Shown: positions 1 to 58,642 of the stretch, piece by piece
How positions within the stretch are numbered: position 1 is the stretch's first letter
Layout: each line of letters starts with the position of its first letter
Assembly (NCBI RefSeq): GCF_964340395.1
Contig: NC_135556.1
Location: 16,560,642 to 16,624,641 of the forward strand
Source of the DNA: Glandiceps talaboti
Taxonomy: Eukaryota > Hemichordata > Enteropneusta > Spengelidae
DNA length: 64,000 bases
Reading direction: 5' to 3'
Notes under the pieces: generated by a model
What the model was told of the DNA's origin: nothing
The model's input: the letters and a program-made list of their open reading frames with translations, nothing else
Databases searched by the model: none
Program-made: the position numbers and the translations under genes

Positions 1-730
1 TACATATTTGCAAATGTACAAATTCTTTGCTCTCGGGTAAGGCTTACCGAGTTCTCTACCCTTTTCACCGTTACATATCTACTTACATGTACTTCATTGT
101 ATCTCGAAAATCACAGTTGTGTCTATTCCTTTCACGCTGGTCATGTGAATTTAATTGTAGAATATGGATGTAATTCCTACATAGATTTTCAATGCTTGTA
201 AATCTATGACATATTTACAACTTTGATTGTAATCTGTGACATATTTACAAATTCTCAACTTTGAAAGGTTATTGTGAGAAGAATAACACCAATAAATAGT
301 GGAAAAAACGAGAAGTTACTGATTACTGATTGGTAATTCTTAATTGTTTTAAGAGTAAATTTTAAAAGAGACATCCATATGAGTTTGGCAATGCCACTAA
401 TTTAGCAGAAATATGGAGGAGAAGACTCACATTACCGAAAGGTAAATTTCATAAAATAACTGTGGTATTTTCAAGTATTCCATGATTTTAAATTATTGCA
501 TGGTTTGATATTTTATGACTCTAAATGTGGGCTCCTACATGTCCTTATTTTCAAAAATGTTTTCACCATGGACCTGGGACACCCCGCACCCTCCCCACCA
601 GAAGCTATCATGGGAATGCGACCTTTCCCAAAAATGAAGATAGAGGGGAGAGCCTAGAATGTAAAAATATGTCGCCAGTAGCATTCTTATCACCCCTTTC
701 CCCATCAAACTAGTAGGAAGGGATTAGAAG

Positions 731-845
731 AGCACCCACGGCGGTTAATCTTTCAGTATTGGGGATATTAGAGCCCCACTGCGGCTAATCTTTCAGTATT
801 GGGGATATTGGAGCCCCACTGCGGCTAATCTTTCAGTATAGGGGT
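731..845. repeat. 40-bp tandem repeat, about 3 copies
   Basis: Three successive units of about 40 bp, each containing 'gcggctaatctttcagtat' followed by 'ggggatatt', differ at only a few positions. It is a short minisatellite with no coding sense. Confidence 0.85.
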
Positions 846-3146
846 TCATTTCGAGAGGGAGCATGACATTTTTTTGCGAGTACGAGGAGGGGTGCCAAAT
901 CGTTTCTTGCCGTAAATTCTACTCGCTATAAAACGTCTTGAAATTGTTGTACAGGTCGTTTGTCAGCAACGTTTCACAGTATGATTACTGTGCAATGACC
1001 AATGATGGTCTTTAATCAGCAAAATCGAGATGGCACGCCTGGATGTAGCTACGTATAGTCCTGCTTACATGACGGTGCACGAGTCTGTATTACTGACTTG
1101 ACTCTAAACACCGGATCCGGAGTAGGAGGGACAATTGTCAGAATCGAGTCCCGGATTACTCCGCATGCAAGCAGGACTAGCCTGGATGCTGGGTGTTCGC
1201 GTCTGTATAGTTTAGAATATATAAATAATACTATACATACACTTGTCAACGATGGCATGAAAGTAGGTCATACATGGAAATTTTCCAGGTTTGAGGATTA
1301 GAGGCTATAACAGGTAATTTTTGACAACAATTGCGAAATTATTCTGGGGCGATAGGGATTGGTGAACAGTACAGATAGAGGCTGTTGCGTTAATCTGATA
1401 GGACACTGGCAGAAACAGCTAGCTAACCCGTTCCGTTCAGTGGTCACTTCTTCCTGTCGTAAATTAGCAATAAAACAACACTGTGAGAGTAACCCACGAC
1501 ATATTCACATGCATTACAAAATAATGTGAAGTTTCAAATTACCCACCTCTGGATTTGTCAGTAATGTATCGGATTATGTAACAAAATCTTCAGTTATAAG
1601 CATATAATGCAACTCTTGGTCAGCGTCATACGGTGAGGGCAAACATATACAAAATGAAGATGTTGTTGACGTCATATCCTCGTACCGGCTTTCACTTTCG
1701 TAGATCTATTGTCATTCACAGAGGTCATTCATATAGCTTCAAAATCATCATGTGACTCACGAGATGTGAGAGACGACGTCTCGTACGGGGTCACGAACTG
1801 TGTGTGGACACGCGTTTCTCAAGTTGCACAATCTACTTGTGATTACTGTTTGTAATGTGTGTTCATGGGATCATGCAAATATAATATCACTGTGCACTTC
1901 CCCATTATATGTAACCGTACTTACATGTAATTGGAGAACAACAACAATTTTTTGATCTTCTTCCGTATCAGTGTGTATAGTTCTGTGACCTCGATATGTC
2001 CAGGTGGTATTACTACTTTATCTCACAAACCCAGCTTTATCCACAGGGGCACGTATTATTGCTTAGATTGTCGTTTTCTAAAAAATTTCACACGAATCCT
2101 GCTGCTACAAATGTATCAATCTCTATACATATATTTCCTCACAGGTAGGAAACTATAGTCAAAACGTTTGTTATATTTCGCCCATAGACAAGGAAAGCAA
2201 CAATCTGAGAAACACTACGTGCCCCTATGGCTTAATCCACGGAAATGAAAAAGAAGAACAGTCACATGTAGCAATAGATCCATTACTAAACTTTACAGTC
2301 ATACAGTCTAGTTCCTATACGGTATCGTTACAATTTACACATACCTCAATTCACAGTACAGTCAAAGTCGTTACTCTAGAAGTCCTGCGATGCAATTTAA
2401 AAATTTTTAGTTAGAAACCACGTTGACATCCAGACTAACATTCATACTGAACTTACTTGGGTAAATTTTAGGATTCTGACTGAGAGCTTCTCAACCAATC
2501 CGATTAATGGAATTTTGATGCAGTCCCTTCCCTATTGACCAGTCAAACTCCTTTCCTCAGTAACCAATCATAAATAGGTCCCGTATCACGTTCGCGCCAA
2601 TATTTATGGGATGTTGGTAACCCTATATAAGCTAATGAATATGTGATTTGTAGGAGTTTTATTAATGACCAATAAAGTGTGCGTAGTCGCTTTTTTAGTA
2701 CTTGGTTGTGTAGTTATCATTCTATCCAGAACCTCTTGTGCAACAACTATCGAACAAAAATAACCGAAAGCGGGCAGCAAACACATTAAAAAAATCAACG
2801 AACCGGACACACCTACCAAGTTATACGTTCACTATGCCGGGAGCTTGGTAAACACAGAGAAAATGAACGGACACGTTTAATAACAAAGTTACACGTTCAC
2901 TATCAATTATGATGCTGCAAACAAATGATAAATGACCATGTCCATTTTTTTAAAACAAGTACTGTTAACAAATATCCACTTTTTAAAGTTGCTACATTTG
3001 TAAGGGACTTATTTCGTTCTAGACGGTCCCTCTCTTACTACGTGAACTCTTCATACCAAGTATCAAAGATCGCAACGCCAGCCAACCAGCCAGGCAGCCA
3101 GCTAGGCAGGCAGGCAGGTAGCCAGGCCTCCCACCCACCCTCCTTT

Positions 3147-3148
3147 CG

Positions 3149-3183
<35 letters not shown>

Positions 3184-3184
3184 A
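3147..3184. repeat. (GTGC)n microsatellite
   Basis: About nine uninterrupted GTGC/CGTG units follow a degenerate CCAG/GGCA-rich tract. ORFs on both strands here are the low-complexity translation of the repeat. Confidence 0.95.
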
Positions 3185-3754
3185 CTTTCATGAGGAACTG
3201 TGTATGTCACTAGTCTGAAAACAATAAAGAACAGTAAATTAAATATACCAACCTTTCCTTACTTCCTTAGAAATGTTCTTGTCATTCAAGTTATGCTGGA
3301 AATCTGGGACTGGGGGAAAAAGGAGAGAAATACTTAAAATTTGAAGGATTTGTAGCATTAGTGTGTATTTATATTCCCCCAAATGTTTTATTTATTTCAA
3401 AGAGAGAAAATACGAATGACATAGGGGGATTTGTCGCTACGAGTCAGAGACGATAGTATTTTTCCGGTTCAATGAAGAGTAACATCAGGGAATATTCCTG
3501 CACAAGCTGAAATTTAATTTTAAAAATAATGAAAATTGTGGCAAATTTGAACAGGTTTAATTATATTTCGAGCACCGCAAAACCAAAATAAGTAAACATA
3601 CGTGTCCTAGAACGACCAATGTATATGTATAAGCTTTACATGTAATATATCCCGTATTTTCTGTTCCAATATGTAAACTTGCATTTGTCTTGTGCATGTT
3701 ATAATATTCAGTTGAAATCATAGAGACAATAAGAATTGTGCGATAATATTATCA

Positions 3755-3760
3755 TTTATT
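3755..3760 (-). promoter_or_regulatory. Poly(A) signal of the Roco gene
   Basis: TTTATT on the plus strand reads AATAAA on the minus strand, about 70 bases past the Roco stop codon (3832-3834). Position and orientation fit a short 3' UTR. Confidence 0.6.
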
Positions 3761-3831
3761 GACTTCCCTTGCCTGGGATATTACAAGTTAAGTATTACAT
3801 TGACCAATGGCATCATAGTGCCACCAGTCTG

Positions 3832-6777
3832 TTAGTTGAAAGGACCTAGCCTAGTATACCACGAGTTGCCATTGCGAGAACTCGTTTCTGTACTTACATG
3901 TTCATCTTCCATGTATGTTGTCAATGCAGTACGATGCATGGCTCTACCACAGAATGCAGTGAATGTTGATCCAATACATGGGAAGGTCCCTTCCTGGTTA
4001 CAAAACGACAGGATATGAAGCGCATTCTCATTCTCTGCGCGCTCATGAGGAGATGTACAAAGAATACCGCATCGATATTTCAGCTCAGGAAATTCTCTAC
4101 AACGAATGGCCTGGATATCTCCGTTCAACTTACTGAAGAGTTCATAAGGGTTACATCCGTGCACCAAAGCAACGGTGACTCTGATTAAATGCTGCGCGGG
4201 TGATTGTTCGGTTAAGTCGAGTCGAAAGGAGAACTCTTCATGTGTAACCTTTCCAACGTTACGGTAAATTTTGAAATTATGCGACTCGTGGAAACAACTT
4301 GAAATACACCTGGAAACAAGTCTTGAGTATATCGAATCTGGTTTGAAGAATCCAAAATCAAAATAGAACGTTTTGAATGGAAGTCCAGGCCCAAGATCAA
4401 CCGGGTCACCTTCATACATGGGTGTTGCAGATGGAATGACATACTCTTTCACCGTAGCCATTCTTCCTAAAGGGCGCAGGAAATCATAACACTGAAGAAG
4501 TGTCAGAAGTACATGAGTGTGTTCCGTGATGCTTTCTAATAAACTTTCAAGAAGCTTATGGTGAATGATGCCCTCTTTGGATAGACGGTTCCACTTAGAA
4601 GCAAGACTAGGTTTTCTGTCCTTCTCTTGGGGTATGTTTACAATCAATTTGAAAGCGTCGATAAGCAACCTTGGACTCATCAGCACAAATTGTCTCAGTA
4701 TTGGGTCATTACTGATGTAGATCAAGTGACCGGTGTCATGGAAGAATTGCAGCATACGAACCACCTCTTCTCTGGTTTCGACACCACAGTGCCTTCGTGC
4801 GTAATCAAACACATCCTTAAAAGGCATTATCCCTTGTATATTGGCACTATCGTTACACTCCAGCACAGTCTTCCCTAAGACTACCGATGCTAGTAACTCG
4901 CCATATCTAAGAACATCCTTCAAATTCATGGCTTTCTTTACATTATTGTCATTCTGGAGAATATATTTGAATTTAAACCATCGGACCGGGAACGTGTTTT
5001 CCTTATCACTGGTGGTGCAAATACATTGTTTTCGAATGGCAGCTTGCAGTTCTTCCACGTCTCCATCAGAGCGTGCAGAGTTTTCAACCATCCAGAGAGG
5101 TGTATTGTCCGAGTTAATCGCAAGACGATCACAGTACATGGAGTTGGTATCATACAGCGTTTCCTTCAAGTGAATTGCAACCCTTTGCCGTAGGTCGACC
5201 TCTACAGAGGTTTTATGAGTTCCTACGATGAATATCATCGAATTTGGACTTGAGTGTGTGCATGTGGAGTGAAGCCAAAACAGGAGACGCTTTACTTCTC
5301 TTTCCATTGATTCATCATCTAAACATTTGGCTAGATTAAACACAACCAAAAATATTGCACGTGGTGCTATAAATACGTGGTGCGTATTGTAATAAAATTC
5401 GTCGCCAGCAAAATCCCATACGTTCAATTTTAGCGGTAGGCTAGTTCTTTTTAAATCCCTCAGGTTGATAACGTGCTGATTAATGTATCGAAAGTGACTT
5501 GTTTCTGCGTATATCCTTCGGTACACGTCAAATACCAAAAAGAAGATGCCATATAGAATTGCAATCATAGAAGAAAGAGCATAAGAATCTGGCAGTCTAT
5601 ACCCACAGAAACAGGCTATGATAAGTCCAAGTGCCATTCTTATGGGTAAAAGAATTGGTGCACCGAGCTGAAAAACACCATTCACGACGGGCCCAAATTC
5701 TACTCCCAGAGACATTCCAAAAGTCACCAAAACATTGGACATAAATGCATACATGTGCAACGAAAAGAAAATAGGTGACAATACCCCAACAACGACAGGG
5801 AGTGACAATATCATGATTTGAACAAAAAAGGTCCATCTCAGTTTCATCCCAATGGCTAAAGTACGAAAGTTCTTTCCTCTAAGTTTAACATACAGTTTGT
5901 GTATTGAGAAGCCTACGGCTAAACCTATGATTATGACGGCTTTCTCCGTGTACCATGTGTGGGACGGGAAGGGTACGGATGGGTCATCCTCTTTTGTTTT
6001 CAGTGGAGATAAAGTGACCGAAAACCCAAACAACATACCTATATTAAAAGTCGTGGTGATGAATACTCCGAGTGCAAATCCACCAATGATTGTCACAAGA
6101 AAAACTATCAACGTAACAGCCTGTGATAAGTCTGTCCGTGACTCGATTAGTATGGCATACTCTCTATTAAAGTTGGACAACTTTTCGATGAAGACAAGCA
6201 ATAGTGCAAGTCCTGCTGCAAGTTTTGAAGAAGTGATGCTATCTGTAAAGAATCTGAAGACGAGGACAAATATAGAAAATGAGAAAATAAACCCATTTTG
6301 CAGTTGAAGGATTTCAGCTAGGAGAATATTACCTATTACAGAAAATACAATTAGTAAGTAAATAGCGAGGAACCCCAACTTGTTATCGCGGTTATTTCTT
6401 ATTTCACTCTTGTTACTGTCCTCCACGGCTGTTTTTGCAAGTAACCAAGACATTTTGTGTGTGTACTCATCTTGTTTAGAACTGACATGTCGCCATCTCT
6501 CGTCGACTTCAACAGATTCACACTCCAGGGTATCTACGCCAACTGTTTTCTTTTCATCGGGGTTGAATTTTTCACCCATGAGTCTCCTCCTTAAGCTAGT
6601 CTTTCCTACACCAGCATCACCAAGGAGTTGGACTTTGACATCATTACTAGGAAGGGTGCCATTCTTTTCTAAATATTTATGCTTCTCGTGTAGAGAGCTA
6701 TTCGAAACCAGGTTGCCTACATCATGAGGATCGATGAGATGGAACTGGTGCCACAATCTTTTCATATATTCCTTCAT
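3832..6777 (-). CDS. Roco-family (Roc-COR) GTPase with a multi-pass membrane domain inserted in the Roc domain
   Basis: A single uninterrupted exon. Numbering from the most upstream in-frame Met (6807, 991 residues), the P-loop GDAGVGKT is at 63-70, a switch-I-like KKTVGVDT near 86-93, the G3 motif in NVWDFAGDEFYY near 462-473, a degenerate G4 'VGTHKT' near 528-533, and a G5-like 'ENSARS' near 575. A COR domain follows (from about 605, including FFHDTGHL and YFDFGFF). In known Rocos, P-loop and switch II are about 45 residues apart. Here residues about 144-430 between them form 9-10 hydrophobic helices, such as AIYLLIVFSVIGNILL and GLALLLVF. By family, Roco proteins are dimerising GTPases that act as signalling switches; membrane anchoring is inferred. 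I start at Met 6777 because the sequence just upstream looks like a splice acceptor (pyrimidine-rich run ending in AAG). So this may be the last exon of a longer gene, with upstream exons to the right that I could not find. Confidence 0.9.
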   Translation of the reverse strand: MKEYMKRLWHQFHLIDPHDVGNLVSNSSLHEKHKYLEKNGTLPSNDVKVQLLGDAGVGKTSLRRRLMGEKFNPDEKKTVGVDTLECESVEVDERWRHVSSKQDEYTHKMSWLLAKTAVEDSNKSEIRNNRDNKLGFLAIYLLIVFSVIGNILLAEILQLQNGFIFSFSIFVLVFRFFTDSITSSKLAAGLALLLVFIEKLSNFNREYAILIESRTDLSQAVTLIVFLVTIIGGFALGVFITTTFNIGMLFGFSVTLSPLKTKEDDPSVPFPSHTWYTEKAVIIIGLAVGFSIHKLYVKLRGKNFRTLAIGMKLRWTFFVQIMILSLPVVVGVLSPIFFSLHMYAFMSNVLVTFGMSLGVEFGPVVNGVFQLGAPILLPIRMALGLIIACFCGYRLPDSYALSSMIAILYGIFFLVFDVYRRIYAETSHFRYINQHVINLRDLKRTSLPLKLNVWDFAGDEFYYNTHHVFIAPRAIFLVVFNLAKCLDDESMEREVKRLLFWLHSTCTHSSPNSMIFIVGTHKTSVEVDLRQRVAIHLKETLYDTNSMYCDRLAINSDNTPLWMVENSARSDGDVEELQAAIRKQCICTTSDKENTFPVRWFKFKYILQNDNNVKKAMNLKDVLRYGELLASVVLGKTVLECNDSANIQGIMPFKDVFDYARRHCGVETREEVVRMLQFFHDTGHLIYISNDPILRQFVLMSPRLLIDAFKLIVNIPQEKDRKPSLASKWNRLSKEGIIHHKLLESLLESITEHTHVLLTLLQCYDFLRPLGRMATVKEYVIPSATPMYEGDPVDLGPGLPFKTFYFDFGFFKPDSIYSRLVSRCISSCFHESHNFKIYRNVGKVTHEEFSFRLDLTEQSPAQHLIRVTVALVHGCNPYELFSKLNGDIQAIRCREFPELKYRCGILCTSPHERAENENALHILSFCNQEGTFPCIGSTFTAFCGRAMHRTALTTYMEDEHVSTETSSRNGNSWYTRLGPFN

Positions 6778-6809
6778 CCTTAAAACAAATTCAAACAATA
6801 AAAGCAATA

Positions 6810-15970: not shown

Positions 15971-16563
15971 ATTCAGTTTAAATCTGGTCAATGCCTATTT
16001 TTACAACTCTATTTTAGAGAGGTCGCGCGAAGCATTATTGGTAAAAAAAAAAAAAACTTTTCTCTGGGTTCCATAGGGATAATAAAGAAATATAGCAAAG
16101 ACGAAATCAGCCTCGCCTGTATTCCTCTTAAATAACATGGATATTCATACAATATTCATGTTCATCATGTTATGCCGTATATTTCTATGTTTGTAGTCAC
16201 TACAATTTCCCTCACCATGGGTCACTGGACATACAAGTGTCGTAGGTCCCTCAGGGTAAATTTAGTTATCAATAGTAATTTTCATGACACGTCCGACCTC
16301 TAGGTTGTAACTCACGGTGGTAGTTTTCAATAATCATAGTACAATACATGGACGTTGACAACAATACATTCGTACTCATACTCACCCGTGTCCTAAACAC
16401 ATGGTTAAGCTCCGTTGCCATAACACCGTCTGAAGACTGTCTTTGTTCGTACCTTTGTATGACGAAAGTGGTCACGTTCGATAGTGCGAATGCGCATGCT
16501 GTTCTGTCAGCCATATTATACACACCTTTCGGTCACAATGGCATAATTTTCATCAACCAACCC

Positions 16564-17409
16564 ATGGCGTTCAAGATCAGTCCTTTACGGAGACTATACC
16601 TCGACTTAAACAGGTCTATGGATCAAAGCCAGGTCGTACAACTAAAGGGTTTGTTATTGGATGATCAGATTCCAAAACAAGAAAAGGAGTCCGCAGAAAA
16701 CGCTTCCGACATTTTCATATTGTTGGAAGATTATGGATACGTATCACAAGACAATCTCGGCTTTCTAAAAGAGCTACTGGAGAATTTCAAAATGCCTAGT
16801 CTAATAAAAAAAATCAGTGATTGTGAGAAGCGGATTAAAGGAGAGTGCTCAACGCCATTAACAGATTCACAGGGTAAAAATCAAGATTGTTTTGAAATAT
16901 GTGTGTCTTTAATTTGTCTATCAGTACGTAATGGTTTCAGTAAAATTTATCATTGCTTGGACAACTTACCATATCGTGAACTGTTTCATTCAATTCATAG
17001 TATTGGTATAAATATATCCATTCAACACTGGTTGAAGAAAATAACCCCGGCCTGCTATAGAAACGTGCAGGTTGGTTGTATTTACACAATTGCCGAACTC
17101 TATTCAATCAATGACCTCAAATAGTCGTCTTGGTTTCGATTCACAAGCCTTTGCCTATCTGACAAGTGTGTGCCTACTGTGTAATGCCGTGGATTCCAAA
17201 ACACACGATAAAAACATTCATTTTTTGCGCGTAACTATCCAATTACACTGTTTATGCTGCATAAACATGACTGGGAACCTTTGGAGACAATGGTCATGTG
17301 ATCACTATATTAAGGTTTGATTGAAACTGTACTTGTGCGTTTTTCATGTACACGCACCCGCATGATGCATGGATGCATAAATTTACAATCTTGTAATCAT
17401 ACACGCACG

Positions 17410-24256: not shown

Positions 24257-25039
24257 GTGTGTGTGTGTGTATTGTAAAACTTTTGTTATCTTGTTTTAAA
24301 ATGGAAGGGGGTGGGGGGGTACTTCAAATGTTTTTTTTTTATCCAGGCAGAGAGGGTACTTCAAAAGTTATCAGTGAACCAGTGACATGTTGGTATAGTT
24401 ATGAACCGCACGTTACCAAATTGGTAACCGAGAAAAACAATTTGAATTGCTTCTGCATATAGAAAAATAATTTGACTGGAGGACTGACAATAGAAAGAAA
24501 ATTTGCTGTCACAGTAATGGGAAAAAAATGTTTTGCCATACCCACTTCCCCCTCCCCCCGAAATCAAATGGTTCTCCACTTAGGTAGGCAGAGTTGACAA
24601 TCATATGGGCCGAGTTGGCGATGTGCCGAGTTGGACCTACCCCCTCTGGTTGTTGCACATCACGTGCTTTATTTGTTTATGAAAGCGTTTGTGGACAAAC
24701 ATAAGACCACCTAGAATTGTAATTTTGACAAAGAACAACAATGGTTATCGTGATTTTTCGAATATGAGACTGAACCTGAGGCTCAATATGAGACTGGCCT
24801 CGTCCTCCAATGTGAATCTGATGCTGAATCTGAGACCAACTTTATACTTGAGGTAGACGTAGGTAGACGGAGCGTAGTTATAATAGACCTAATTAGGTAG
24901 ACGTGGTAGACGTATTCTCCAAGGGGGAATTCAGTTTTGTCAGGTACGTTGTTGTGAGTCACATAGTTTAGGGCCGCTGAAAACTGTGTACAGACCGCAG
25001 TACACATTTTCATGCTGTTTGAACGGGGGTAACAACATC

Positions 25040-28000
25040 ATGGCCACCTCGGTTGATTTGCAAAAGTTCCTCAACAAAATGGACGACGATTTTGTGTCAT
25101 GTTCAATCTGCCTAGAGCGATACGACAATCCTAAAGTGCTAGCGTGTCTCCATACGTTCTGTGAAAAATGTCTTTTAACATTAGTAAGACGATCGCGACG
25201 CCATGGGTTCGATTGCCCAACTTGTGGAATGGGGTTCGACATTACAGCTGACGGTGTGCGAGAGCTAAAGGGCAACTTCTTCATGAATTCGTTAGTCGAT
25301 CTTGTCGCAGAGAGACGAATGTTTGCAACCGCTGAAACCGAGAGGAAATGTGAGTTTTGTGAGGAAGATGCGGCGACTCATATCTGCGTTGAATGTCCAC
25401 AATATTTCTGCAATACCTGTGTTAAATCTCATCAGAAAATCAAAGCTACACGTTCTCATGAAGTCACTACAATACAAGAATACATGGAAACGAACTCTTG
25501 TATTCCTAACAAGATGATAGAGTACTGTAATGTTCACAAGCGAAGCGAGTTGAAATTTTATTGTGACACATGCACGCTACCAGTTTGCACTGACTGTACA
25601 ATAGTGGACCACCGCATACCTGGTCATCGTCATCGCAATTTAGATGAGGTCGCTCGTGAGTATCGCGAAGAACTGGTACAAGTTACGCAAAGATTACAGC
25701 AACAAGAGCAAAGGATGAAAGCGTCAACATCGGGGCTAAAGACAAATTTACAACGTTTTAAAGTCCAGTGTGGGATTGAAGAGAACAACATACATGCTCA
25801 TGCTGAAGACACTATACATAAAGTGAAGAAAGAAGAAGGCATTATAGTTGACCGTCTGAAAGCAGCATACCGAGATACAGAGAAGGAACACAAAGCCCAA
25901 ATTGACCGCCAAGAATTAAATCATGGTAATATCGAAAGCACGCGTAAGTACATCGACACTCTCACACAATTTGGTGGACCTGCTCAACTATTATCGACGA
26001 AGCAAGAAACTTTGGCTCAAGTAAATCATCTGATGTCGCTGGAGTTGAAAAGTTTCGAAAATGACGCCGCCGTGGAATTTAAGCCCAATCCAAGCGACAC
26101 TATTTCTCTTGGGTCTCTTGTATCAGATGCTTGCGTATTGAAATCTAGCGTAGAAAACATCCCGAAAGAAGTAGTTAAAGGTGAGTCCACAACATTGACC
26201 ATCGTTACCAGGGACAGTGAAGGAAGAGAAATTCTTCCCCGCCAAAAACTTGCAGTCAAGATCGGGGACAGAAATCTTGATCTGGTCTACCGTGGTGGTG
26301 GAAATTTCAAGGTGACATTTTTTGGGGCAGAAGAAGGGAAGCAACAGATATCCGTCACGTTAGACAAGCAACCATTACGAGGAACACCTCTGCAAATCAA
26401 AGTCGTCGACAGAACATCCGTGAAAAGACAAGTGGTTGAGATCTCGACAGGTAAGTCCTCAGCATACACTATATTCTCGATTGAAAAGAAGTTTTTGCTT
26501 AGAGTTGGAGCAGAAGCAAGTACAAATGTGTCTGGAATGAATTCAAACTGATAGCCGCAAATCTGTACGATCAAACGCTGTCTACGAGAAAATCGGGATA
26601 GTTTGCAATTGAGGATTGATTTATGTACATTAGTACATATGATCACGATGTATATGTCGCTATGCATCTGTAGTATGTACTAAATTTTGAAACAAAATCC
26701 TTGGAATGAAGGTACGAGGCTCGTACATTTACACTTTGGCTTACATGCTCAGGGGTTAGAGCTAGAGTGCTTCAGTGTCTGAAATGCATGAGGACCTCGA
26801 TAGCAACACTAGTACATCTCTGCCTTGAAATAGGCAAATATTGTGTGACTGACTGACTATGACTGACAGACAGCATAGCAATCAACACGAACACACGTGT
26901 TTGAATTTGTCTCGCGAGCTTTCCTTGAACTTTCAAGTTGCCGAATGATGTCCCGGATTGAAGAGAAATTCAGAATGTTGCTTGTCTGAAACCTACTGTT
27001 CTGAAACCATGTACTGGCACAATGGATTCTTGTGTTCTGCATAATATGTAATATCTAGATTAACTTTCACGGAAATGGTCATGAACCAAGTCACAGTTAT
27101 TCAACACCTCCCAAATTGAACGGACAACAAGTGTTTACAACTCAGGTCTCATCTTCAAGTTTATGTGCTAAGAACTACACATACAGGAATATAATAAAAT
27201 ATCATCTTGTCGTGTCATTGTTTCATTGACAGTATCATGTATTATTTGAAAGTGTATCAAACTTTGTAGAATTAGGAAGGTATGTGATTTTGTTACCATG
27301 GCAACTGATCTTCATAGAATGGTAACTTTTTTGAAATCAGTATAACAAACTACCCCACATCAGGTGGTCCATATGCAAATAAACTCGATTATTATTAAAT
27401 TCATAACATTATTTTGTCAGCAGAAAATATTTTACCAAAACATTTTTAAGCCTCCTGTATGTTTCCATGGAGACAGCTGTCCTATTTTACACAATTTGTG
27501 TTACATTGGATAGCACTGACTCATACATGCCAAAAGCAATGAAATTGATTTGCTAAATTTTTTTTTCACGTTTTATGTCAAAATGTGGAAAAGTAATCCA
27601 CATATTATGGTTAATTTGGTTACCATGGCAACGGACATTCATAAAATGACCCCCATTTTTAGCACAACTGAAGTGAGGTTCAGTAGTGCTATAGGGATTG
27701 CCTGGCGTTTGTCTGTCTGTCTGTGTGACGGTGTGTGTCAAAAAGTCAAAAACCGCTGAACCGATTGCCATGATATTTGGTGGGTGGCTAGTTGGGAAAT
27801 TTTTCAAATCAAAATGATCTTACCACCGGTTTGTGATTTGGGTCAAAAATGTGATTTTTGGTCAAAAAACTTAAATTCAAAGACTACAAGCAGATTGGGC
27901 TGAAATTTGGGTGAAACATTCTTCAGGGTGTTTTTACTAAGAATTGTTCATGATGGTCCCATCAGTGATATGCAAATTAGGACTAAAAATGTGTCTTTTT

Positions 28001-38000: not shown

Positions 38001-41000
38001 AGATACAGGAAGTTAAAGAATTTTTGAAGCCCTGAAAATAAGTTATAAAAAGAAAATAATACACACATGATGTTATTGCTATGCTAATTCAAAATGAATA
38101 ACTATCTGGTGGAGAGTTGTTGGATAAGCCTTGAGGATTGATACGCAATAATCAGTCACATACTGACACACACAGAGCAGCTTTGATCAGAATCTTATTT
38201 TTCGTCTCCAAGAACATAAGCCATTAGCACCCAAAACACTCACTCAAGTAAAATGATTCCACAGTGTGTACCACACCCATTTATAGCATTCATTATGTGT
38301 AAAATAACTGTTTACTGTAACAATAAACCTAGGATGCCACTTTTATAATGTTGTCAATTTGTAAACAATGTTATTGTCAATGAAAGCTAACTGATTACAG
38401 GTTACATTTAGTGAATGGTAGCATGGTCTCCTGCTATCTGTGGTAATGAATCATCTGTTCACCCCCCACCCCCCAAAGAGAGAAATTGAGATTCAATGCC
38501 ATGGATAGCACTAGACTAACGTTAGCATGGCAACATTTACACCTGATATGAATGCTAATAAAGATTATGGCACACTGTAAAATTGTTTTACTAGGTAAAT
38601 TGTAACAGATTCTGTTACAAATCAATACTGTACAACACTGACCTGTTGTGTGTTTACCAGTTGCTCCTGCCACACTAGCACTGCCAAGACTAGCCGTACT
38701 TGAAGCCAACTCAGGTATGGTATGATTACCAAAATCCATAGAAGCTGTATCACTCATGTCAAAACTCTTCTGGCTTTCAAGAGTGATTTCAAAGACAGAT
38801 CCACCTGTATACAGATGAGAACAATAGACGTAACTCAGGAGTTTTGTCATTCAAAAACGAAATCACAGCTGTTTTAGGAAAGGTGTCAGAATGAAGTGAC
38901 CAGTGTCACACCATGGCTAACTATGATTAGAATTCCTAGTATTCAGGTGTAACACAAAACCATTCCATGACATACTAATTACTATATAGTTTTCACATTC
39001 TAAAATCTCTATGAAACCCCTGTTACAGCATCAAGTGTGCTGAAGAGATTATTAAAGCCATGAAAGGTGTGCATCAACATAACAATATACCATAACAGAT
39101 TATTCTAATGAGGATTTTCAAGCAAGTATTTTCATCCTGGTGAAAATATTACAAGCTGGTATTTTTTTTTTTGGTGCTGTGAATAGCTCCCAGCCATTAA
39201 TATTATTTATACTGATACATACCTCAGACCACACTTGTCCGAGTACATACACACACATACATGTACAAACCATGCATTTTTACAGACATCCATTCACGTT
39301 TGGGAGGTACATGTATATGACAGGGCTATCTTGCATTCTCGCTATCACGTCACTGTTTTATAAACTCAACTTGTATGATTTGTCTCATACCTTTCCTACT
39401 AGTACTTGACAATCTTGATGGATACAAATCTGGGGTACCAAACGTTGCCTGTGATGTCTCTATCAAATCTGACAGCTCCAATGTACTGTCCCATTTATTG
39501 TGCTCAAAGTCATGGTCATTTTGATCACCATGTTGAACATCTTTCATTGGCTTCTCAATCTCCTTACTGGTGCATGACATTCTGGTGTTATTCTGCGTTT
39601 CACGTATCTGTCTGTTTGCATGGTTAAGCTGAAAAGAGAAGTAGAGTTGACTGCATTATTTGAGTACTAACGTAAACATATTAATACTCTTTCAGGGGGC
39701 ACATTTTTGTACAACACAAGTTTGGTAAAACAGGAGTAAAAATGTAGACAGACTACTTTTTTTCAAAGATACCCTTTAGCAATTTTTTCCTGGTTCAGAA
39801 CCAGTCAACAAAAATAAATTCAATTTTCCTGAAAACAAGTCTTTTGTTTTTATTTTTATTTTTTCTTCTAATTCAGAGTTTTTACTCAGGTTTAGAAACC
39901 CCATAAGCATAGAAGGGAAATCTACAAAAGAACCACTTTCGGTCTGAATCTGACATAAGGATACCTACCAATGTACAATGAGTAGTAACACTGAAGTAAA
40001 GCCCTTTCTCTATATGCTTGTTTAAACATTCACATCAAGTGTAAATAGTATACTATGTCAATTGGTTTATTTACAGGCCTAGCATGTGACCTTTCTAATG
40101 TGGTCAACTAGTAAATGAAACAGTGTACTTTTACACTAAATATGGATGCTATAAATGATCGTGGTACATACAGAAAAACACTTTACTTTGGTGTTTATAT
40201 ATGGGTTGTGTAATTTGTATTTGTTGTACATTTGCTGTACATGTACATACCTGTACTTCAAGTGATCGTAACCTCTGATTTAGACTTGAGTTCTTTTTCT
40301 GCTCTTCCATATATTTCTCTTTGTTGGATTTCACCTCGCCTTTCATTTTGATGTCTTTGGCTTGCAATGTTTTACACTGTAATAAAATTACAAGCACACG
40401 ATGGTGATACAGCAGTATTTACAAAGGATAGAAGAATTGTAAAGGGATACATGTTTGCAACTCTCTATGATTGGTTCTTGTATTTAGTTTCCTATGAAAA
40501 CCTAATCAATGTATTTTCATCTCTTACATTATTTAAAACTTGCTGAATTATATTATAAGCTCTCAAAAGTATTTACATTGTAATGTGACAATGTGCTCAA
40601 CAATCGTATTAGACTGCAAGAATCATCAGTTTGTACTTATAAGCTAAACACATTCTTCTAAGTTCTACAGGAGAGTACACAACATTGGATTTTCAGTCTC
40701 CAAGAACATGAACTTAAAACCACAGACATGGAAAATAAGGAAATATTTCGCTCTGTAAATATCCAACCAATTAGAAAAAATATGACATTTAATGAGTTTT
40801 CAGTGAATGACTAATTTGATACGTCGTAATATTTCTGTACTGACTTATTTTGTGTGTTTTTAACCTTAAAAGTCAAGCATCTTGTGATACTGTTATGAAA
40901 AGTGAAGAAAACTGATAAGCAGTCTACTACAGTCATAAAAGACCTGAAGTGATCCCTTATAATATAAATGAACCACACATCATTTCACAGCACATCTCCA

Positions 41001-42926
41001 AACTTACCTCACTCCTGAGTTTTTCAACCTCAGTCTTCAGCTGTGTTTCATCAGCGGACATCTTCTTAATCTTCTCGGCGTAGTCCTTCAACTGTCTGGT
41101 TTGTTTCTCACAAGTGCTCTGCAACGGATGATGCTGGGACATCAGTTTCATTAGTTTAGCTTTGTACTGATCTCCTCTTACTTCGCTATCTTTCAACTTC
41201 TTTTCTGTTTCTTCTCTCACTCTATTTAAATTCTTCAACTCATTTCTGGACCTATAGAGTTCTTGTTTGGCGCTGTCTCTCTCTTTGCAAGCATCATCCA
41301 GATTTTTGGCAAGTTCTTTACGAAGTCTGTTGGCTTCTGTGCCAGACTTTTCTTCAAAGCCTGCTAACTTAAGATTGCACACTTTCTCGATTTCTTGGAT
41401 ACGTTTTGCAGACTCTAGTTTGATTAGTTTGCATTCCTCACTTATCGTCTTATTATTATTTCTAAGAATCTCTCCTTCTTCCACAACAATGCGATGTTCC
41501 TTTTCAGCCTGTTCCAATTTTAAACTGATATCAGATTTTTGTTTTTCAATGCTGACTTTGAGATTGTCTCTTTCTTCATGTAATTTGGCAATATCTGAGT
41601 TTTGTTTGTCAATCTCTTTCTGATAACTTTGTACTTCATTCTTGAAGCTTTCCTCCATCTTCATAAATTTCTTATTTGCTTCTTCAAGAACTGAAGATTT
41701 CTCTGTTATCTCTTTCTCATAGGCTCCCCTAATCTTCATTATCTCTTCCTGGTAGGCTGTCACATCATTCATCTTCTGCTTCTGAAGATTATCTTTCTGT
41801 GTTTGCATGGCAACCAGCTGTTCTTTCAGAACTTTCATTTCCTGTTGGTTTGTCCATTTCTCGTTTTCTTTCGTCATTTCCAGACAATGGTGTGATCCTT
41901 GTAGATCCAGGATCTTCTGCTGGAGATCATTTTCCCTGTCTTTCCATTCCTTCTTTGTGGTCTGCATCTCCCTGTGAAGCTCCTCAATCTTGCCCTTAAA
42001 GAACTCTTCTTGTTCTTTGACCTGCTTCTCAATGGTTCGCTTCTCTATCAAAACTTGGTCTGTATCCCTCTTCTGTTTCTCCACAGCTGTTTGGTAGACT
42101 TCAACATCTTTTTTAGTTAACGACAAAACATGCTGTAACTGACCAAATTCTTGTTGAAGTGCATCTTTCTCCTCAGCCAGTTTTGCTTTTTCCTCAATCT
42201 TGCCCTTAAAGAACTCTTCTTGTTCTTTGACGTGCTTCTCAATGGCTCTCTTCTCCATCAAAACTTGGTCTGTATCCCTCTTCTGTTTTTCCACAGCTGT
42301 TTGGTAGACTTCAACATCTTTTTTAGTTAACGACAAAACATGCTGTAACTGACCAAATTCTTGTTGAAGTGCGTCTTTCTCCTCAGCCAGTTTTGCTTTT
42401 TCCTCAGTCTTGCCTTTAAAGAACTCTTCTTGTTCTTTGACCTGCTTCTCAATGGCTCTCTTCTCTATCAAAACTTGCTCCATATCCCTCTTCTGTTTCT
42501 CCATAGCTGTTTGGTAGACTTCAACATCTTTTTTAGTTAACGACAAAACATGCTGTAACTGACCAAATTCTTGTTGAAGTGCATCTTTCTCCTCAGCCAG
42601 TTTTGCTTTTTCCTTTTCAATTTCATTGTTGATACATTTCAAGCTCTCCAATTCTTGTGTCAGGTAAGATAGTTGTTGACCACTTTCCTCTTTCTGTGTT
42701 TTTAAGGAATGTGTCAGTTGACAAACTTCATTGATCTTCATTGTCAAGTCTGCTTGAAGTTTTTGTACTTGACTCTGTAGAGATAGTACTTCAGTTTTGG
42801 CCTCCTTGTAGCTAGCCTGAGGAAAATGTTAATTTAGAAAAAATCTTAGATTTCACTGATTTTTACATCAAATGTGTACTTATGAAGAGATCAAGAGTAT
42901 ACAGCATCAGACTCCAAATCATTACT

Positions 42927-57200: not shown

Positions 57201-58642
57201 TATATTGATTTGATAGTGACATTGGTATCATTAATATATACTTTGTTATTAAAATCCAAATTTTACATATATGTTATAAATTATAGAGATATGCATGTTG
57301 TCATGTTTATATGAAAGTATGATGTTGATTGTGACATCAATATGTATATAATGTTTTCGAAATCCAACTTTTGCATGTATGTTATAAAAAGTGATGTGTA
57401 AGTCAGTACATGATTATTATTATTATATGAAAGCATTATTCATTTTGATTTTGTCATATCTTATAAATTGGATACCCTTCATGCTGAGCTACTGTAATAA
57501 ATATGATAAAATAAACATATGCATGACTAGCCCCATCTACATGGCACTAAAACTCCTACCTGAGGTAGGATTCAGGATATTTTGAAGCCCATGTAGACGC
57601 AAACGTGTCCTGAACCTGTCCTGAAACCCTCCTGACTTTGTCCTATGTACTGTCATGACGGAAGGCGCGACATCTACACTGTAACCTTCCTACGTGTAGA
57701 CACAAATCCTACCTCAGGTAGGACTTGGGACTGCCTCAGGTAGGATGACCTACGTGTAGATGGGGCTAGTGAGAGTTAGAGAGACATGCAGCCAGACAGA
57801 GGTACTCTCCCACTTTCTCTTCAAAAAGAAAAATTGCTTTGTTGGATATATTACAATGAATACCTGTACTTCTCAAACAAATACTGTACACCATGAGGTG
57901 TAGTGAATCTCCTGTGAGTAAACATATTAATTGAAGCTGCACAGTGTGGTACAATAAGTCCAATCAAATTGATTTTTGGATCCACTCCCAAAAATCAGTG
58001 ATCTTAATTTCAAACTCCAATATGGATAAAACCAACCTCTAATTGACATGCAAAATGTCTAGTTATTGGTTTTTTAACAATTGTCAGTAACTATATCAAT
58101 ATTGTGGACTGTCTGATTGTAAAAATAATACTTCAGTTAGGGTTTGTGCTGCTTTAACTAGGATTGATCTCTTTTTAAATTTGTAGAATTCTCAGTGTTT
58201 ATTTTCCTTTAAATTCCTGTTGACCCATCACATATGTTCAAGAAAACCTGGCAATGTATGACATCCACAGACATCACCCTGGACCACAGTTTTGACTTCA
58301 GAACACCTATCAGATATTCATTTGATATTTAATTTTGTTTGCTCCCCCCAGGTCATTCTTCAATACACTGGACTGAAGATGTTGTATCTCCATGGCAACG
58401 CTATAGATGATTTGACAGAGATCGATAAACTGGCTAGACTACCCAGTTTGATGAGTCTGAGTCTCCATGGAAACCCAATAGAAAGTGAAAAAGGTTACAG
58501 GAATTACGTACTGACCAAAATTCCACAGTTACGAACACTGGATTTCAGTCGTGTGACAAAGTCTGACACGAATGACGCTGCTACCTGGAATAAAATGTAT
58601 GGCGGTAAAAGGAGACCAAAGAAGAAGAAAAAGAAAGAATAG
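52951..58642 (+). CDS. LRRC51: Leucine-rich repeat-containing protein 51
   Basis: Three coding exons, 52951-53071, 56209-56414 and 58352-58642 (phases 1 and 0), give 205 residues (human 192). It matches human LRRC51 along its length: PPPLDYSFRCLTQI against EPPLDYSFRSIHVI, EDPRTGKRALKK against EEPRTGLRPLKR, WIDLSFNEINKLDD, LYLHGNAIDDL, LTLHGNPMEEEKGYR-like SLHGNPIESEKGYRNYVL, then DFSRVTKSD. It has three or so leucine-rich repeats plus a cap and ends in a Lys-rich tail (PKKKKKKE). Its biochemical role is poorly known; in humans the locus (LRTOMT) also encodes a separate methyltransferase through other exons, none of which I see here. It is transcribed divergently from NuMA. Confidence 0.94.
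53072..56208 (+). other. LRRC51 first coding intron
   Basis: No exon recognised inside. It contains an (AC)n tract at about 54235-54260. A phrase near 53.80 kb ('attcaccacatcagatttta') also occurs in a NuMA intron near 46.11 kb ('attcaccacttcagatttta'), so a small dispersed repeat is shared. The rest is AT-rich and unremarkable. Confidence 0.6.
57537..57769. mobile_element. MITE with terminal inverted repeats in an LRRC51 intron
   Basis: The element begins CTAGCCCCATCTACATG and ends CGTGTAGATGGGGCTAG, near-perfect 17-base inverted ends, and is flanked by TGA on both sides (57534-57536, 57770-57772), possibly a 3-base target duplication. Inside, 'cctacctgaggtagga' and 'cctacctcaggtagga' palindromes recur. 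At 233 bp with no coding capacity it is a non-autonomous DNA transposon; a 3-base duplication would fit a PIF/Harbinger-like source, but that is a guess. Confidence 0.85.
57880..58160. repeat. Dispersed repeat family A, copy 2
   Basis: 'gaatctcctgtgagtaaaca', 'gacatgcaaaatgtctagtt' and 'gattgatttttggatcc'-like phrases follow the same order as copies at 33.8 and 63.6 kb. Confidence 0.6.

Follow-up and report, generated by a model that had tools for sequence, protein, structure and literature searches.

A Roco GTPase gene of the acorn worm Glandiceps talaboti with a predicted membrane domain inserted in its Roc domain between the two switch regions

Organization of the Roco locus

The window analysed here is a stretch of 64,000 nucleotides of the Glandiceps talaboti genome (contig NC_135556.1, positions 16,560,642 to 16,624,641). 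A Roco GTPase gene is located on its minus strand. We consider it highly probable that in the encoded protein a conserved hydrophobic domain of membrane type interrupts the Roc GTPase domain between its two switch regions, I and II.

The gene lies in an open reading frame (ORF) of 991 codons (6807..3832), which opens with TTG, a start allowed by the bacterial table. Homology places the gene start at the ATG at 6777, just 3' of an acceptor-like TTTTAAG/G, and because a strong splice donor, CAT/GTAAGT, was found at 3897, the exon was ended at 3898. The coding exon is thus most likely 6777–3898, or 960 codons, an open length expected by chance with a probability of about 3e-27 under the local base composition. 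Across the insert, the coding frame contains 0 stops and each of the five other frames contains 7–29. A previous reading of this DNA, hereafter the sequence-only reading, had described one unbroken frame of 991 residues. The unbroken frame is borne out; its final 21 residues, however, probably belong to an intron, and the strand is minus. Residues are numbered here from the ATG at 6777 (the numbers of the sequence-only reading minus 10). The gene contains the following features, with the basis of each assignment in brackets:

3898–6777, minus strand: main coding exon of 960 codons, with a short N-terminus, Roc part 1, the predicted membrane insert, Roc part 2 and COR (alignment of the ATG with relatives, donor at 3897, acceptor-like site upstream)
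6595–6621, minus strand: G1 motif (P-loop) GDAGVGKTS (motif and Pfam)
6532–6546, minus strand: G2 motif (switch I) TVGVD (motif, LRRK2 alignment)
5458–6492, minus strand: inserted domain, residues 96–440 (alignment with relatives)
5533–6375, minus strand: hydrophobic core of the insert, 8–10 predicted transmembrane segments (hydropathy on two scales, loop charges)
5008–5457, minus strand: second part of the Roc domain (Pfam, insert-removed Roc and LRRK2 matches)
5404–5418, minus strand: G3 motif (switch II) WDFAG (motif, LRRK2 alignment)
5209–5220, minus strand: G4 site THKT, THRD in most relatives (alignment of relatives)
4429–4821, minus strand: COR-A match, 32.4 bits (Pfam, cut-off 35.3)
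3896–3897, minus strand: splice donor GT in the context CAT/GTAAGT (sequence)

The split Roc domain

Pfam analysis of the exon product revealed a Roc match of 75.2 bits (cut-off 27) in two stretches, plus a Ras match. After removal of residues 95–431, Roc became a single continuous match of 78.2 bits covering positions 1–117 of the 119 of the profile, and the LRRK2 Roc domain aligned to the insert-removed sequence in one stretch (E 1.6e-15). In a further LRRK2 alignment, the insert is positioned between TVGID and IQIRD, a site in beta2 or the beta2–beta3 hairpin, i.e., the interswitch segment. COR-A of the window copy scored 32.4 bits, just short of the Pfam cut-off of 35.3, and COR-A was found in all eight family members scanned (Pfam, E ≤ 1). 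The claim that Roc resumes after the hydrophobic segment and is followed by COR was therefore confirmed, and on these two domains we class the predicted protein as a Roco. No Pfam match to a kinase, a trait of the LRRK and DAPK1 groups, or to leucine-rich repeats (LRR), a trait of the LRRK group, was found in the exon or in the family members scanned, and the window protein was thus placed outside both groups.

The P-loop starts at residue 53 and the aspartate of DFAG is residue 455, so the distance between G1 and G3 is 402 residues. The extra sequence within Roc amounts to about 345 residues and is strongly hydrophobic. The hydrophobic split of the P-loop from switch II, as previously described, is thus correct.

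Fourteen control genes bearing Roc (2 from the same genome and 12 prokaryotic) showed a G1–G3 distance of 44–60 residues and no hydrophobic peak. The controls, defined by Roc alone, were the 14 of 22 loci readable by motif; among several motif pairs, the one nearest to 55 residues was kept. Six ORFs of the same genome (L023–L028) accommodate the whole Roc profile within 348–441 bases and are free of the insert. Among 16 prokaryotic loci scanned, the insert was absent from all 12 readable by motif; in three unreadable ones (L035, L036 and L037) the matched spans of 747, 729 and 402 bases are too short for it, and L050 was left out of the judgement.

Predicted membrane domain

In the window protein alone, eight non-overlapping hydropathy windows above 1.4 are located within the insert and two outside it. 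The family-mean hydropathy showed ten peaks in hemichordates, molluscs and crinoids alike (cut-off 0.9). A second scale gave ten peaks in four of five groups (L019 alone gave eleven); on this scale 3–5 peaks beyond the insert also pass the cut-off, which makes the helix count soft, and single sequences at a fixed threshold gave from 4 to 10 peaks. Ten is used as a working number, since some adjacent peaks are just 15–16 residues apart. In a ten-helix model with the N-terminus inside, loops 6–7 and 8–9 are cytosolic, and net positive charge peaks in these loops in all three groups; loops 2–3 and 4–5, cytosolic in the same model, have no positive excess. An even number of helices is required if both ends are cytosolic. 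From these features we infer a membrane domain with eight to ten helices; their number is probably ten, which would leave both ends in the cytosol. The 9–10 helices of the sequence-only reading keep their position between switch I and II and their hydrophobicity; their number is better given as roughly 8–10 predicted helices.

Position 185 carries a basic residue in 97% of 32 non-redundant sequences and position 417 an acidic one in 100%, and Gly247, Pro258, Gly362 and Gly384 are conserved in 91–97%. At the sensitivity used, the insert had no relative in Pfam (five inserts scanned) or in the PDB (best E 0.12, a soluble lipid kinase), and the inserted domain may therefore represent a new membrane fold. 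An internal five-plus-five repeat in the insert was considered and rejected: its score of 20.5 equalled that of the reversed sequence and was below the best of 40 shuffles (24.7).

Relatives in other animals and in the Glandiceps genome

Protein searches revealed at least 38 distinct relatives in acorn worms (Glandiceps talaboti and Ptychodera flava), crinoids (Antedon and Anneissia) and molluscs (the bivalves Sinanodonta, Pinctada, Mytilus, Mactra and Mercenaria and the gastropod Batillaria), and six further sequences group with the molluscs. Part of these searches scored about 8,000 best candidates, so that others, with or without the insert, are possible. All 35 relatives readable by motif have a distance of 349–409 residues between switch I and switch II. 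P0021 and P0033, which are without the switch I motif used, show a G1–G3 distance of 406 and 410 residues, respectively, and P0001, whose N-terminus is missing, contains part of the insert. Thus, the insert is present in 37 of 37 relatives that keep both Roc halves. The sequence-only reading had proposed a search of deuterostomes for the same insertion; acorn-worm and crinoid Roc–COR relatives do carry it, and the family extends beyond deuterostomes to molluscs. In Ptychodera flava, 16 of the 22 matches of one protein search, P0005 included, are apparently located on one contig of 45.7 Mb.

In the 590 Mb genome of Glandiceps, 13 further loci were found with intact ORFs of 857–1016 codons, all with the insert. 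For 12 of them the motifs gave G1–G3 distances of 374–434 residues, with 6–9 hydropathy peaks; L009 has DFPG in place of DFAG, and its insert was established by alignment. Another insert-bearing locus, L022, is interrupted in its first half by a run of N. L014 is the gene of P0004 and L011 that of P0027 (tree distance 0), while L010, where three segments of P0001 were found, is the gene of P0001. Two of these loci, L010 and L009, lie in tandem with the window gene and in the same orientation. As found here, the family comprises 50 distinct members, window gene and L022 included. With the window gene, Glandiceps has at least 15 loci (150 of 281 candidates were scored), and nested-membrane Rocos are strongly expanded in the acorn-worm lineage. 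Split Roc-profile matches on contig C1 were considered as further members; the pairs inspected there, plus one on C5, proved to be genes of the Rab type, split at this point by an intron.

Origin of the insert and selection

A comparison of the hemichordate and mollusc insert profiles showed that they are collinear over 271 columns, with a score of 46 (reversed control, 16.2; best of 60 block shuffles, 34.8) and a probability of 78%; other settings gave 311 columns and 85%. On these profiles the inserts of different phyla are judged homologous. Insert and Roc–COR distances correlate closely (r 0.947, Mantel p 0.001; 37 sequences), and 22 of 34 splits are common to both trees, so that the insert evolves together with the rest of the gene. 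In both flank and insert trees (50 sequences, FastTree, unrooted, P0001 and P0026 omitted), the hemichordate L019 clusters with 12 mollusc-type proteins with a local support of 1.000, and it shares with them the motifs GKxxQGKTS and DFAGHPLYH. Because of this grouping the insert is probably older than the protostome–deuterostome split, a dating based on L019 as the single hemichordate gene of mollusc type.

In all six paralogue pairs, the ratio of non-synonymous to synonymous substitution rates (dN/dS) was 0.19–0.38 for the insert and 0.15–0.42 for its hydrophobic core; these values are rough, since dS is near saturation in several pairs, and three of the six pairs share sequences, being drawn from the window gene, L009 and L010. 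Such ratios indicate purifying selection on the insert. Between the window gene and P0001, identity is 70 of 160 comparable residues (44%) in the insert, 69% in Roc part 2 and 66% in COR. Between the window gene and L010, COR residues 641–800 differ at 1 of 21 and 5 of 30 four-fold sites, as against about half in most other bins, and this tract holds an identical run of 102 bases. It looks as after gene conversion between tandem neighbours. Faster synonymous change in the inserts, as might mark diversifying receptors, was also considered. Among five pairs, p for four-fold sites was below 0.05 just for the window gene and L010 (34/60 vs. 62/158, p 0.02), and this idea was rejected, the sole significant pair being driven by the conversion-like COR tract.

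C-terminal domains of the sister genes

Nine of the 13 sister loci have a TIR-like or Death domain downstream. A TIR-like exon is located 0.8–1.1 kb downstream in L009, L010 and L014; its assignment is based on a profile match to TLR6 (E 7.6e-4) and on TIR_2 matches in three of four tails (best E 1.4e-4). In L011, L012, L013, L016, L019 and L021, two Death-type exons with the same split point correspond to the Death-domain tail of P0005, P0006 or P0027. Neither type of exon was found in L015, L017, L018 and L020. For the window gene, a lenient tblastn search with the TIR-like tails over window positions 1–3910 produced chance-level pieces only.

Other open reading frames of the window

A Death effector domain (Pfam DED, E 4e-14) is encoded by an ORF at 16324–17124 on the plus strand, about 10 kb from the Roco gene, as a second cell-death module nearby. 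A TRIM-type ORF (24893–26551, plus strand) contains RING, B-box and a weak Filamin repeat match, and a short ORF at 58262–58642 (plus strand) matches LRR_9 (E 2.4e-15). The long ORF at 40957–42828 (minus strand) has a coiled-coil look by eye and near-identical internal repeats of about 70 residues; its Pfam matches are sub-threshold only.

Comparison with known systems

No description of a Roco whose Roc domain encloses a membrane domain was found in the available parts of the open-access literature searched, in line with the earlier statement that no Roco of this layout is known. The family is a known one (Roco), and the place and the kind of the inserted domain are new. To our knowledge, Roc is soluble in other Rocos and comes into contact with membranes by recruitment. 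In Galpha, an all-helical domain is nested in the Ras-like fold. It is similar to the present case in being a helical domain within a G domain, but it is soluble and inserted before switch I, whereas the insert described here follows switch I and is predicted to be of membrane type. LRRK2 and LRRK1 resemble the window protein in their Roc domain, once the insert is removed (E 1.6e-15 for LRRK2), and in the COR that follows; unlike them, the window exon has no LRR or kinase match, and its switch I and switch II are set apart by about 345 additional residues. The other metazoan Roco groups, DAPK1 and MFHAS1, share Roc–COR, and DAPK1 has a Death domain (PMC6337361, in the part available), as the sister genes do here; the family studied differs from both in being without kinase or LRR and in the membrane domain nested in Roc.

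Membrane segments joined to a Roco have some precedent. The C-terminal regions of brown-algal Roco genes resemble transmembrane proteins, according to the accessible part of PMC4104024; there they come after COR, while here the segments interrupt Roc. A long ROC domain with a non-conserved inserted sequence is mentioned in the portion of PMC11378527 at hand, which is not a conserved membrane domain. Aplysia Rocos with LRR/TIR or TIR/Death domains, as far as the text available of PMC9334734 goes, are similar in combining Roc–COR with TIR or Death in an invertebrate, and a nested multi-pass domain is not described in that text. Prokaryotic AP-GTPase (Roc)–COR proteins belong to predicted conflict systems (PMC8195603, seen in part), where the same switch has a predicted role in immunity or cell death. 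They differ in their attached LRRs and effector domains, and a nested membrane domain was found neither in that part of the source nor in our 12 readable prokaryotic loci. In Arf/Arl proteins, the interswitch strands couple nucleotide state to the release of a membrane-binding helix (PMC4635315, available portion). That helix is N-terminal and amphipathic, not an interswitch membrane domain, and the likeness is mechanistic only, not one of kinship.

Discussion

The best explanation of these data, to which we give a probability of about 0.55, is an ancient family of bilaterian Roco GTPases that are embedded in the membrane, with an interswitch insert and TIR or Death signalling. In the proposed mechanism, a membrane domain of about 345 residues would sit in the interswitch (beta2 or the beta2–beta3 hairpin) of Roc, the Roc domain would close up on the cytosolic face, and COR would then follow. 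The membrane domain would sense a lipid, a ligand or a transported solute. Since it hangs on the interswitch, its state could shift switch I and switch II, the movement passing via beta2–beta3, and the shifted switches would set the nucleotide state and Roc–COR dimerisation. In other Rocos, Roc–COR dimerises according to nucleotide state (PMC5714945 and PMC6337361, in the parts accessible). Dimerisation would cluster TIR or Death domains and lead to an immune or cell-death response; the pathway is probably one of these two. That the membrane domain sets the GTP switch we rate slightly below even odds. More tentatively, the protein could be viewed as a receptor and a G protein fused by nesting, in which a sensor or transporter of about ten helices occupies the interswitch, the state of ligand or membrane sets the switch, and TIR or Death domains are clustered. 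Together with this suggestion, and just as tentatively, the family would constitute an ancient bilaterian signalling class that is so far unseen in vertebrates and is expanded in acorn worms.

Several observations weigh against this explanation. The coupling of the membrane domain to GTP is deduced from position. The helix count is soft for the reasons given above, loops 2–3 and 4–5 do not carry the charge expected of cytosolic loops, and the dN/dS values are rough. As for the window copy, no match to the TIR and Death tails was found in the whole window or in the 0.9 kb to the next gene. Its G4 site is THKT, in which the aspartate of guanine specificity is replaced, and dN/dS of Roc part 2 is 0.24 and 0.16 in pairs with the window gene vs. 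0.13 between its two neighbours. The G4 aspartate is missing in 15 of 52 aligned rows (the window gene, P0015, P0026, P0028–P0032, P0034–P0038, L015 and L018), five crinoids among them, so some members are perhaps not normal GTPases.

The lost G4 aspartate, the failure to find a TIR or Death exon and the higher Roc dN/dS point to relaxed constraint on the window copy. It could represent a paralogue that has diverged, with a changed nucleotide specificity and without a signalling domain at its C-terminus, and it may be specialised or decaying despite its intact frame. In the stronger form of this idea, the architecture is real in the family and this gene is a decaying paralogue that no longer works as a GTPase receptor, which we regard as less likely than not. 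All 960 codons are open, dN/dS in pairs with the window gene is 0.16–0.32 over all regions, well below 1, the G4 aspartate has also gone from entire lineages, for example from all five crinoid sequences, and the same failure to find a C-terminal domain applies to L015, L017, L018 and L020. An error in the sequence or its interpretation, whereby the hydrophobic stretch would be intron sequence left unspliced, an inserted mobile element or a chimera of the assembly, is very improbable. It could draw on P0001, the isoform X2 that the database gives for the neighbour gene; this model begins inside the insert and is without the P-loop. The open frame and the purifying selection on the insert contradict it, and the presence of the same, homologous insert in three phyla already refutes it for the family. 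Moreover, P0011, from a contig of 3,994 bases, retains the insert and continues into a Death domain (1055 residues), whereas P0010, P0014, P0015, P0016 and P0017 end at or near a donor-like point after HEYCQ or HDYCQ. The contrast between P0011 and these five mollusc-type ORFs is consistent with a spliced transcript that retains the insert.

The main rival of the coupled switch is a plain membrane anchor, where the membrane domain, or a passenger transporter, merely holds an ordinary Roco switch whose nucleotide cycling is independent. This is possible, although we would not put it at even odds. It would account for the faster divergence of the insert than of its flanks (44% against 69% and 66% identity with P0001); an insertion in a hairpin turn need not disturb the G domain, and recruitment of LRRK2 to membranes has been described (PMC6337361, in the part seen). 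On the other hand, that task would need no more than one helix or a lipid anchor, and the conserved glycines and proline, basic position 185, acidic position 417 and the long-kept interswitch site suggest a role beyond tethering.

If the proposed mechanism of a membrane-embedded Roco switch is correct, invertebrate innate immunity would include an added receptor class, with a membrane domain, a GTPase and TIR or Death domains in one chain. In this family, membrane and switch apparently form one unit, which offers a direct way to test whether a Roc GTPase can be under the control of a membrane domain and may thus bear on how LRRK2 is switched at membranes.

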